From a virus: DNA of 20,759 bases. The notes beneath the pieces were generated by a model. It was not told the origin of the DNA and searched no databases. It was given only the letters and a program-made list of their open reading frames with translations. Position numbers and translations under genes: made by a program. Location: positions 1 to 20,759 of the IMG/VR virus record IMGVR_UViG_3300001831_000098; one strand, given 5' to 3'. Below are positions 14,659-18,178 of the stretch, one piece after another. Position 1 is the stretch's first letter; each line of letters opens with the position of its first letter.

Positions 14659-15575
14659 CTCGCAACAAAATCAAGATACCATTCATATGTTGACCTAATA
14701 CCATCTTCTAGAGAAATCTTAGGTTCCCATCCAAGAGACTTGATTTTACTTACATCCAACACTTTGCGTGGAGTTCCATTTGGTTTATCAGCATCCCAGT
14801 GCATGTTTCCTTTGAAACCAACTACATTAGAAATAGAAGATGCTAGCTCTCGAATAGTTACATCAGTACCAGTACCAACGTTAATTGGTTCTGGATCATT
14901 ATAATCCCTCATACAAACAAAACATGCTTCAGCAAGATCATCTACATGAAGAAATTCTCTCATAGGACTTCCATCACCCCAGAGAGTAACATCAGTCTTT
15001 GCCTCATGAAACTTACGAATTAGAGTTGGAAGAACGTGTGCGTTTTCCAAATCAAAATTATCATTTGGACCATACAGATTAGTAGGCATCAATGAAATTG
15101 CATTGAATCCATACTGCTTACGATATGCCTGACACATCTTAATACCAGCAATCTTTGCAATGGCATAAGCATCATTTGTAGGTTCAAGAGGACCTGTCAT
15201 CAGATACTCTTCTTTGATTGGTTGTTCGCACATCTTAGGATAGATGCAGGAAGAACCCAGGAAAAGAAGTTTCTTAACACCAAACTTGCGAGCAGCATGA
15301 ATGATGTTTGACTGAATCATCAAGTTGTCATAAATGAAATGACCAGGATAATTACTGTTAGCGCCAATACCGCCAACTTTAGCAGCAGCAAGATAGACAT
15401 ACTCGGGTTCGTTATTTTTGAAAAATCGCTCAACGTCATCTTGCCTACGCAAGTCAAAATGACTTGATGGTGTTGAAAGAATGTTGGTATACCCCTTCAT
15501 ATGAAGCATACGGACGATTGCTGAACCAACTAGACCCGTATTGCCAGCAACATAAACACGACTATTACTGTCCAT
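14655..15575 (-). CDS. fcl: GDP-L-fucose synthase
   Basis: This bifunctional NADPH-dependent epimerase/reductase converts GDP-4-keto-6-deoxymannose to GDP-L-fucose. It has the cofactor loop [10 protein letters not shown] (residues 11-20), the SSCIYP segment that holds the catalytic Ser/Cys, [12 protein letters not shown] with Tyr/Lys of the YxxxK motif, and [14 protein letters not shown] typical of WcaG/Fcl. The ATG at 15575 is chosen because the frame further upstream has only TTG and the protein then starts as usual (306 aa). It overlaps gmd by 11 bp; GAGG lies 12 bases upstream. This is the second gene of the operon and a well-supported partner of gmd. Confidence 0.96.
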
Positions 15576-16566
15576 AGATACACATGTCCTCAATTAGTTC
15601 ATCAAAAGAAATTTCTGGTTCCCAACCAAGTTCTTTTTTTGCTTTCGAAGAGTCTCCAAGCAGAGACTCAACTTCAGTCGGGCGAAAATATTTAGGATCT
15701 ACGTAGATGACTGGTTTTTTAGTGTTCCAATCAAATCCAACTTCCTTTTCTCCTTCCCCCATCCATTCAATCTTCATTCCAAAGTAAGGAGCAGCTTTCT
15801 CAACAAACTCTCTTACAGAATATTGTTGTCCAGTAGCAATAACGTAATCTTCAGGTTTTTCTTGCTGAAGCATTAACCACATTGCTCTAACAAAATCTTT
15901 TGCATGACCCCAGTCGCGCTTTGCATCCAGATTGCCAAGATATAAATTCTCTTGAAGTCCAACAGAAATTCTGGACAATGCTTGAGTAATCTTCCTAGTC
16001 ACAAATGTCTCTCCGCGACGAGGAGACTCGTGATTGAAGAGGATACCAGTACAAGCATACATGTTATATGCTTCTCTATAGTTTTTAGTAATCCAATATC
16101 CATATACCTTTGCACATCCGTAAGGAGAACGTGGGTAGAATGGAGTTGTTTCTTTTTGAGGGACTTCTTGAACAAGTCCAAACATTTCGGAGGTAGATGC
16201 TTGATAGATTCTTACGTCCTCTTCCATACCAAGGAGACGAACCGCCTCCAAAATGCGAAGAGTTCCCACAGCATCCACATCCGCAGTGTATTCAGGCATT
16301 TCAAAGGATACTTTGACATGACTCTGAGCACCAAGATTGTAAATTTCATCTGGTTTAACTTTTTGAATAACCCTGACTATATTGGTAGAATCAGTAAGAT
16401 CCCCATAATGCAAATTAATACGATTGTAAATGTGATCAATACGATGAGTATTAATCAAGGAAGATCGGCGGACAATACCATGAACTTCATACCCTTTACT
16501 AAGAAGAAGCTCTGCTAAGTATGATCCGTCTTGCCCCGTAATACCAGTAATTAGAGCGACTTTCAT
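15565..16566 (-). CDS. gmd: GDP-mannose 4,6-dehydratase
   Basis: This enzyme catalyses the first committed step from GDP-mannose to GDP-L-fucose (or GDP-rhamnose). The NADP-binding start is [18 protein letters not shown] (residues 5-22). Further blocks are VRRSS, the Thr/Ser-Glu of STSEMFG, the catalytic [10 protein letters not shown] (YxxxK) and the signature [20 protein letters not shown]. At 333 residues it is near the usual size (about 340-370). It is the first gene of the 21-gene operon, about 20 bases after a terminator/promoter element; its leader is roughly 14 nt with no clear ribosome site. All key residues are present. Confidence 0.97.
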
Positions 16567-16622: not shown

Positions 16623-16642
16623 ATTAGGTCTTTACATGCACG

Positions 16643-16664
16643 CCAAGTTATTTTTTTAACCAGG
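16643..16664 (-). other. Imperfect hairpin before the terminator
   Basis: On the minus strand CCTGGTTA pairs with TAACTTGG around six A residues, with one T-T mismatch and one G-T pair. It follows the tandem hairpin array and may be its degenerate continuation. It rests on the inverted repeat only. Confidence 0.3.
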
Positions 16665-16699
16665 TAATAACTAAATCCTGAGCGGGAGTAACCCCATCC

Positions 16700-16800
16700 G
16701 CACCACTTACTTTTAGGAAGCAAGAAACCATTAGAGGGTCAATGACTCCACCACCTAGTTTTAGGAACTAGGAAACCCGAGGGGTCGTTAAACCCATCCC
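16700..16800 (-). repeat. Tandem array of related RNA hairpin modules
   Basis: This non-coding stretch between the 78-aa gene and the terminator contains two aligned modules of about 50 nt. Each has GGTTT, a 7-bp hairpin with the identical loop CCTAA, then TGGTG. Hairpin 1 (16754-16772) has stem CCTAGTT/AACTAGG; hairpin 2 (16706-16724) has CTTGCTT/AAGTAAG. The stems differ in sequence yet both pair, one through a G-U pair that exists only in minus-strand RNA. Each module is preceded by a GG-rich/CCC-rich short helix (GGATGGG...CCC type), and a third degenerate unit appears to follow. It lies in a transcript ending at 16595, so it is a 3' element of that unit or a leader for gmd on read-through. 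Confidence 0.65.
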
Positions 16801-16819
16801 GACCAGGGCAGTTTTTAAG

Positions 16820-17056
16820 TCACTCCGCGACTACATCGTCTTTTACATAACAAGGAACACGATCTGGATCTAACCATTTTGTGTATTCAAAATCATCTAT
16901 GGCAGTCAGAAGTTGCATCTGATTGTCAAGAAGATACATATCGCTGTAGCGTTTGGTCCAACTATTTGCTTTTTGAATGCGATAGTCGGGGAACCCGTTG
17001 TCTAGGGTTCCACACTCAACATAACGATAGGGAAAACGCTCTAGGAGAATTTTCAT
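16820..17056 (-). CDS. Unknown small protein, 78 aa
   Basis: This gene is not recognised. The 78-residue soluble protein is rich in Tyr, Asp and Arg (begins MKILLERFPYRYVECGTLDN, ends in an acidic VKDDVVAE tail). There are no membrane segments or metal motifs. The ATG at 17056 overlaps the stop of the preceding gene (ATGA). It is the second and last gene of a short unit driven by the consensus promoter at 17292-17320, followed by the hairpin array and a terminator, so it is probably an early phage protein. Confidence 0.75.
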   Translation of the reverse strand: MKILLERFPYRYVECGTLDNGFPDYRIQKANSWTKRYSDMYLLDNQMQLLTAIDDFEYTKWLDPDRVPCYVKDDVVAE

Positions 17057-17268
17057 GCAACCTCAGCAGATTCAAGATCACGAACAATGCAGTCAATCAA
17101 GATTTCATAATCATCGAGTGCATCTCCAGAGAATACTACTCCAGAGTTTTCATAGAAACGTCGAACTTTTTTAAAGAGTTTAGGATTCTTTACGTCAAGG
17201 TAAATGTCCCCAGATGCAGCAGCACGAAGAGTGCTGATCTCTTTTTTGAACTTTGCCGTCAGTGCCAT
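17053..17268 (-). CDS. Unknown small protein, 71 aa
   Basis: This is an unrecognised, mainly helical 71-residue protein with a Lys-rich N-terminal half (MALTAKFKKE, LFKKVRRFYE) and an acidic C-terminal half (DALDDYEILIDCIVRDLE), suggesting binding to nucleic acid or to another protein. I use ATG 17268 rather than an upstream in-frame TTG at 17289, because the predicted transcription start (about 17285) would lie downstream of that TTG. The leader would be about 17 nt without an evident Shine-Dalgarno site. It is coupled to the next gene by ATGA. Confidence 0.75.
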   Translation of the reverse strand: MALTAKFKKEISTLRAAASGDIYLDVKNPKLFKKVRRFYENSGVVFSGDALDDYEILIDCIVRDLESAEVA

Positions 17269-17291
17269 TGATTTGTTTGGTTTACCCAATC

Positions 17292-17320
17292 ATTATAAGG
17301 AAAATTCGCAGGGTTGTCAA
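17292..17320 (-). promoter_or_regulatory. Consensus sigma70-type promoter
   Basis: TTGACA (17315-17320), 17 bp, TATAAT (17292-17297): a perfect match to the bacterial housekeeping consensus, ten bases after the stop of the 2OG oxygenase gene. The expected start is near 17285, ahead of the 71-aa gene. It is probably an early promoter read by unmodified host RNA polymerase. Confidence 0.88.
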
Positions 17321-17329
17321 GGACTTTTT

Positions 17330-17983
17330 TCAAAATCGAGTAACTGGTTCCAAGTAAAAATTTCCAGAGATAGAAATTCTATAATCATCAGAAGTATAGA
17401 ATGGATAAACTACATGTCTTAATTTGGACGGAAAGATAAGTATAGTTTTTTCATAACTACTATTCAATTTAATCTTAAAATCTTCAATTCCAGAAACAGG
17501 ATCAGTATCCAGAAAACAAAAAGTGCCCGCATATTTTTGAGTCGGATTACCTCTCCTTTCTTTAAATTCATCTTCCTCACAACTGTAAGGAATTTTCATC
17601 CAGATCACAAAACTATAAAGACCGCTATGATGATGAACTGGATTAAATTCATACTTTTTTTGATAGTTAACCCACAACATTTTTAAATTTAAATCTATCG
17701 ACCCATTAGGAGCGGAAAAAATTTTATAACTTTTCATCAATTCAAAATTTTGTTCAAACTCTCCACAAAGATTTCTAAGATATGTTTCTACTTTATTGAA
17801 CTGATAGAAAGGCATCTGAGTCAGATCATAAGTTTCTTCTAAATTACCAATTAATCTATCAGTAATATCAAGTTTTTCATTTCTAGATTGCTCCGAAGCA
17901 GACAATAAAATATCATAAATTTCATCAGAAATTTTTGTTTGAATAAATCCGTTGTGTGTTGGAAATCTTGTAACTTCTGCCAT
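17330..17983 (-). CDS. Phage-type 2OG-Fe(II) oxygenase, 217 aa
   Basis: This putative dioxygenase has the same general layout as the oxygenase at 14062-14658 but diverged sequence. LWVNYQKKYEFNPVHHHSGL (residues 103-122) supplies a His cluster (117-119), and the second half has ILIFPSKLRHVVYPF (His190) and YRISISGNF (Arg202). Between them is an insertion with KERRGNPTQKYAG. The family is widespread in T4-like cyanophages with unknown substrates. It starts with ATG 17983, shortly after the tRNA-Pro gene, and appears to be in the same transcript from the promoter at 18150. No strong ribosome site is visible. It is followed ten bases later by the next promoter. Confidence 0.75.
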   Translation of the reverse strand: MAEVTRFPTHNGFIQTKISDEIYDILLSASEQSRNEKLDITDRLIGNLEETYDLTQMPFYQFNKVETYLRNLCGEFEQNFELMKSYKIFSAPNGSIDLNLKMLWVNYQKKYEFNPVHHHSGLYSFVIWMKIPYSCEEDEFKERRGNPTQKYAGTFCFLDTDPVSGIEDFKIKLNSSYEKTILIFPSKLRHVVYPFYTSDDYRISISGNFYLEPVTRF

Positions 17984-17999
17984 TATTTTTTAGCATCAA

Positions 18000-18073
18000 T
18001 CGGAATGACAGGATTCGAACCTGCGACATCTCGCTCCCAAAGCGAGTGCTCTACCAAACTGAGCTACATTCCG
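18000..18073 (-). tRNA. tRNA-Pro, anticodon UGG
   Basis: A complete cloverleaf is present. The acceptor stem is CGGAATG/CATTCCG, the D arm GCTC...GAGC, the anticodon stem CTCGC/GCGAG with loop TTTGGGA (anticodon TGG at 18037-18039), and the T arm GCAGG-TTCGAAT-CCTGT, with discriminator A at 18000. No 3' CCA is encoded. The sequence closely resembles cyanobacterial proline tRNAs, consistent with capture from a host. It starts four bases after the pseudoknot of the leader and precedes the 2OG oxygenase gene by 16 bp. Confidence 0.96.
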
Positions 18074-18077
18074 TCGC

Positions 18078-18143
18078 GGTAGGTTCCTGTCGCCGCCAGT
18101 CCTGAACCCACCAGAAGGGGACTGCCGCAGTTGATATCTCAAC
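18078..18143 (-). ncRNA. Structured leader: 5' hairpin plus H-type pseudoknot before tRNA-Pro
   Basis: At the predicted 5' end of the transcript a hairpin GTTGA-GATA-TCAAC (18143-18130) is followed by two crossing helices. Stem A pairs CAGTCC (18124-18119) with GGACTG (18102-18097). Stem B pairs GGTGGGTTC (18112-18104) with GAACCTACC (18086-18078). The order A5'-B5'-A3'-B3' defines a compact H-type pseudoknot with loops of 6, 1 and 10 nt. Stem B has one U-G pair in minus-strand RNA that would be an A-C mismatch on the other strand. The stretch is visibly richer in G and C than its surroundings. I cannot match it to a named riboswitch. RNase P cleavage of the adjacent tRNA would free it. Confidence 0.6.
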
Positions 18144-18149
18144 GAAATA

Positions 18150-18178
18150 ATTATATTACTTTTTAAAGAATCTGTCAA
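18150..18178 (-). promoter_or_regulatory. Consensus sigma70-type promoter for the pseudoknot/tRNA-Pro unit
   Basis: TTGACA (18173-18178), 17 bp, TATAAT (18150-18155), again a perfect consensus. It is embedded in the last codons of the 54-aa ORF (its stop overlaps the spacer). The expected start near 18143 coincides with the first base of the 5' hairpin. Confidence 0.85.

Follow-up and report, generated by a model that had tools for sequence, protein, structure and literature searches.

Theta ribozymes are HDV-like pseudoknotted phage RNAs that abut tRNA genes. They lie at the tRNA 3' end, cleave themselves and have a P3 hairpin within a fold that is a nested double pseudoknot (PMC10879173). 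The wcaG and manA motifs (RF01761 and RF01745), known from T4-like cyanophages and from marine metagenomes, are structured RNAs whose function is unproven (PMC2864571). Phage T4 carries RNA C and RNA D (119 and 139 nt), two small stable RNAs that are sited 3' of tRNA within the tRNA cluster, and rnaD abuts tRNA-Arg. The put antiterminator RNAs of phage HK022 are promoter-proximal structured RNAs of the phage transcript that form nested hairpins. SAM-II and preQ1 are riboswitches of H-type pseudoknot topology with conserved loops.

The locus studied here lies in the window, the whole 20,759-nt stretch of viral DNA that was analysed (IMG/VR record IMGVR_UViG_3300001831_000098). Its minus strand at 18143-18078 consists of a P0 hairpin and an H-type pseudoknot with a 6-bp stem (S1) and a 9-bp stem (S2), preceded by a promoter and followed by tRNA-Pro(UGG). 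The first-pass annotation had described a perfect promoter and, between it and tRNA-Pro, a 5' hairpin and two helices, 6 and 9 bp long, that cross each other. Read on the minus strand, this description is accurate, and the promoter scores 12/12. The features are as follows.

18150..18178, minus strand: sigma-70-type promoter TTGACA-17-TATAAT (12/12 consensus match)
18130..18143, minus strand: P0 hairpin GUUGA-GAUA-UCAAC, read 18143-18130 (sequence; pairing kept in many relatives)
18125..18129, minus strand: linker UGCGG from P0 to the pseudoknot (near-invariant in the alignment)
18119..18124, minus strand: S1 5' strand CAGUCC (two-sided changes in 5 of 6 pairs)
18113..18118, minus strand: L1 CCUUCU with the conserved core CCUU (alignment)
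18104..18112, minus strand: S2 5' strand GGUGGGUUC (two-sided changes in 6 of 9 pairs)
18103, minus strand: junction A, a single nucleotide from the S2 5' strand to the S1 3' strand (sequence, alignment)
18097..18102, minus strand: S1 3' strand GGACUG (covariation)
18087..18096, minus strand: L3 GCGGCGACAG, a 10-nt loop (near-invariant in the alignment)
18078..18086, minus strand: S2 3' strand GAACCUACC (covariation)
18000..18073, minus strand: tRNA-Pro(UGG), 4 nt past S2 (ARAGORN and Rfam)
17330..17983, minus strand: 2OG-Fe(II) oxygenase gene, 3' of the tRNA (Pfam PF13759 at 3.2e-10; phrog_81)

The oxygenase gene is outside the conserved unit and is missing after the element in phage S-SKS1. 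In the window precursor, an RNase P cut would be expected between 18074 and 18073.

Like theta ribozymes, the element is a pseudoknotted phage RNA next to a tRNA gene; unlike them, it is located 5' of the tRNA, lacks P3 and has a single A between the S2 5' and S1 3' strands. A theta or HDV-like ribozyme was accordingly rejected as a candidate, given that the alignment has one A only in place of the P3 and nested double pseudoknot and that the element does not fit cleavage at a tRNA 3' end. The wcaG and manA motifs are likewise structured cyanophage RNAs, but they precede metabolic genes whereas the element mostly precedes tRNAs, and their models do not match it. The parallel with T4 RNA C and D that the first-pass annotation had drawn extends to genomic context, as T4 RNA C and D also come from a tRNA cluster in a phage of the T4-like group, but not to the RNAs themselves, which do not match the family model in any meaningful way and share nothing with the element in Rfam. 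The T4 genome gave no family match, and an unfiltered search of its tRNA region returned weak matches only; the best, at 12 bits, was discarded as a homologue because it falls inside tRNA-Leu. The element shares a promoter-proximal position with HK022 put but is a pseudoknot, usually occurs once and often has no operon to protect. It shares its topology with SAM-II and preQ1 but has neither an Rfam match nor a coherent downstream pathway. Rfam 15 contains no family for the element in gathering or permissive mode (window at E<=10, 12 diverse loci at E<=1), so that no known family of different structure, the counter-evidence named in the first-pass annotation, emerged. The output for the window and the 12 loci comprises tRNA, wcaG elsewhere and chance matches only; a weak match to YrlA (E 2.3) was set aside as due to the tRNA. 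The cyanophage ncRNA literature searched, outside which the 2017 Weinberg survey falls, describes wcaG, manA, glnA, PhotoRC-II, CfrI and abiF but not this element. None of the families tested includes the element, which represents an apparently undescribed family of structured phage RNA, itself a broad kind.

Taken alone, the pseudoknot in the window is not significant. An equal or longer pseudoknot occurs in 285 of 20,000 dinucleotide shuffles (1.4%) and in 130 of 4,138 70-nt windows across the contig, and the nested fold of the element is not unusually stable (z = -0.57). The element is nevertheless certain because, in its homologues, both stems covary and BLAST finds the element itself. Among phage records, BLAST detects it in SynMITS9220M01 (9e-12), S-SKS1 (4e-9) and S-SCSM2R, with further matches in P-SSM2, P-SSM5, S-SM2, Bellamy, ACG-2014f, RB11-B, S-B05, S-B43 and S-H68. 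Three pattern scans of IMG/VR, followed by parsing, raised the sample to at least 123 unique copies, nearly all of which come from viral contigs in IMG/VR or from T4-like cyanophages, and 48 diverse sequences were aligned for covariation. The family model matches the window at 4.5e-15, a value obtained with the window itself in the training set.

A single copy is present in 25 of the 26 matching phage records (7 isolate genomes and 18 of 19 IMG/VR records), a count that leaves out a second match of 16 bits in record G004. The remaining record, G005, has two copies, which precede tRNA-Arg and tRNA-Pro, respectively. The isolates RB11-B, S-B05 and S-H68 also have one copy each. The family model finds no copy in T4, S-PM2, syn9, P-SSM4, P-SSM7, S-SSM5, S-SSM7, S-CRM01 or S-TIM5, the 12-bit match being the sole weak one in this set, and none in S-RIM2 R9_2006 or S-H25 (one weak 15-bit match). 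A host origin was also considered and rejected: 78 exact-pattern matches in bacterial genomes are chance-like on inspection, and the model finds three matches of 25-30 bits in 390 cyanobacterial genomes, none with the pseudoknot.

The refuting outcome named in the first-pass annotation, an absence of covariation at homologous loci, was tested on these homologues, and both stems covary. Standard pairs occupy 99.0% of the S1/S2 cells in the 48 sequences. The covariation score is 0.572 compared with 0.228 +/- 0.012 in shuffles, none of which reaches it, and it drops to at most 0.104 when the pairing partners are slid; the shuffle control ignores kinship, whereas the slid control takes kinship in, and the gap is large. 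Two-sided changes are found in 11 of the 15 pairs, a count equalled by 55 of 500 shuffles, and we thus place weight on the other covariation measures, which no shuffle reached. G-U pairs outnumber A-C pairs in the stems by 104 to 2, which identifies the minus-strand RNA as the conserved strand. The G-U pair of S2, the stem B of the first-pass annotation, is possible in the minus-strand RNA only, as stated there. The sequence of P0 varies while its pairing is kept, with many different stems among copies that do not carry the common P0 sequence; the table of P0 stems was compiled by seeking stems and is weaker evidence than that for S1 and S2. Judged from these sequence comparisons, the RNA structure is almost certainly real.

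The linker UGCGG, the L1 core CCUU, the junction A and the L3 sequence GCGGCGAYAG are near-invariant in the 48-sequence alignment, a conservation that was partly selected by the search patterns. The linker is also conserved in the listed matches to a pattern that did not require it, and L3 is present in 70 of the 76 unique matches listed for a pattern that spans P0 and the linker only.

P0 starts exactly 6 nt past the -10 box in 98 of the 103 compact copies listed, and this spacing places the predicted +1 at the first base of P0 (G18143 in the window). The element thus has, as expected of a small RNA, its own promoter with a predicted +1 at the RNA 5' end, except in some lineages. An adjacent promoter was not seen by eye in S-SM2 and RB11-B, and a free 5' end would therefore need processing there.

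The downstream neighbour changes. Among the at least 123 unique copies, 50 precede tRNA-Arg(UCU), 23 tRNA-Pro(UGG), 23 a second promoter and 26 assorted ORFs, and one is at a contig end, by classes that were assigned automatically and are approximate. A gap of 1-4 nt separates the element from the tRNA in all 90 tRNA-followed copies listed in a looser set, 3 nt in 55 of them. S-SKS1 lacks the tRNA and the oxygenase gene and keeps the element, which is directly followed by a relative of window gene 17053-17289 with its own promoter. The relatives of S-SKS1 show the same arrangement, with the element retained, the tRNA and oxygenase absent and a separate promoter in front of the next gene. In P-SSM2 (AY939844, 144,034-144,104), the element is located ~20 nt upstream of purM. 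Among the proteins encoded downstream are a Phd-like antitoxin and members of families without a known function. The element is thus conserved with no fixed neighbour gene, as seen in S-SKS1 and the mixed contexts. A tree of the elements implies 28 context changes; it was built on 55 columns, too few to rely on. At loci L018, L032, L077, L173 and L202, the small gene after the element has a relative that matches the Phd-like antitoxin (phrog_375). At loci L009, L010, L102, L144, L217, L303, L343 and L363, the next promoter is separated from the element by a TGCCAG...CTGGCA hairpin, which might serve to terminate a free RNA. No clear terminator was found after many tRNA-less copies.

What does the RNA do? 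The element is kept with a tRNA, without a tRNA and before a separate promoter, and the RNA itself therefore seems to be selected. A leader of a single gene would keep its gene, which the element does not; its shifting neighbours thus argue against an oxygenase leader and for an independent small RNA. The presence of one copy in nearly every matching record also counts for an independent small RNA, as does the hairpin before the next promoter in loci of the L009 and L303 types. Against independence, the position of most copies before one of two tRNAs and the pair in G005 hint at a tRNA link. The first-pass annotation had offered three functions. A ligand-binding leader for the oxygenase finds no support, given the retained element in S-SKS1 and the unrelated genes downstream elsewhere. 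A stability element on the 5' fragment left by RNase P is compatible with the data, and the 5'-terminal P0 fits it, but the invariant loops are unexplained by stability alone. A small stable RNA is the best supported of the three, given its own predicted promoter and the absence of a fixed neighbour, and the chances that the product acts independently appear to us evenly balanced.

A cis-acting 5' leader, which would shield the RNA end from RNases, aid polymerase elongation in a put-like manner or prepare the tRNA precursor for RNase P, competes seriously with this reading, since fusion to one of two tRNAs is seen in most copies, and we regard it as possible rather than probable. The location of P0 at the predicted +1, the placement of the element immediately ahead of transcribed units of any kind, the short fixed tRNA gap and the two copies ahead of two tRNAs in G005 all fit such a leader. 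However, there is usually one copy per genome despite many operons, the element is kept where the promoter of the next gene immediately follows, RNase P would strip the leader off the tRNA, and the loops are more conserved than stability alone would need. We consider a metabolite-sensing riboswitch of the H-type pseudoknot kind, acting on the downstream gene, improbable. Its topology and invariant loops recall known small riboswitches, cyanophages harbor other putative riboswitches (wcaG, also in the window), and the start codon is 7-31 nt away in some copies, but the tRNAs, Phd-like antitoxin, purM and unknown proteins downstream share no common pathway, the copies display neither a recurrent terminator nor a conserved start-codon distance, and no Rfam riboswitch matches. 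That the element is a chance fold or a DNA-level repeat without RNA function is scarcely credible: a pseudoknot of such size is not rare in a single sequence, but the covariation, the strand-specific wobble asymmetry and the loop conservation refute this reading.

We propose, with about even confidence, that the element is a phage-encoded structured small RNA of ~70 nt that is released by RNase P where a tRNA follows and acts in trans. Transcription would start at the first base of P0, as the promoter spacing suggests, so that the 5' end is held in a hairpin and none of it is loose. P0 would be followed by UGCGG and then by the compact H-type pseudoknot that the covariation shows. Where a tRNA lies downstream, host RNase P would cleave the transcript 1-4 nt past the pseudoknot, generating a mature tRNA and the small RNA; where no tRNA lies downstream, the RNA would end in some other way or lead a longer transcript. 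The near-invariant linker and L3 most likely touch a host or phage protein, through which the RNA may act in trans; this is the weakest step of the proposal. As a more speculative extension, which we hold to be rather doubtful, the RNA could define a new class of viral RNAs that usurp a host function in trans, with the invariant pseudoknot binding a host factor of RNA processing, translation or defence, for example as a decoy, and RNase P freeing both this effector RNA and the tRNA from one fusion transcript. A CsrA sponge and a 16S or anti-SD mimic were also considered and dropped, the former because S1 does not keep its GGA across copies and the latter because the bases that show the resemblance are variable. 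The element adds to the T4-like marine cyanobacterial viruses, including the model isolates P-SSM2, S-SM2 and S-SKS1, an RNA family that is strongly supported and apparently undescribed. The element is short, usually single-copy and tightly conserved, so that the infection systems already in use allow direct tests of it. It suggests that a phage tRNA can have a functional RNA in its leader.

The analysis also yielded observations on neighbouring genes. In ACG-2014f (L404), the tRNA-Arg just downstream of the element is missing from the annotation; ARAGORN finds tRNA-Arg(TCT) at 2557-2630 and tRNA-Asn(GTT) at 2844-2915, and the GenBank record has neither. In the window, a second 12/12 promoter (17292-17320, minus strand) precedes the small gene 17053-17289 (phrog_552). 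Farther along the minus strand, tandem wcaG RNAs at 16632-16732 and 16739-16835 (67.6 and 45.9 bits) lie directly 5' of a GDP-mannose dehydratase-like gene (15565-16566), and the tandem arrangement is also found in L054.
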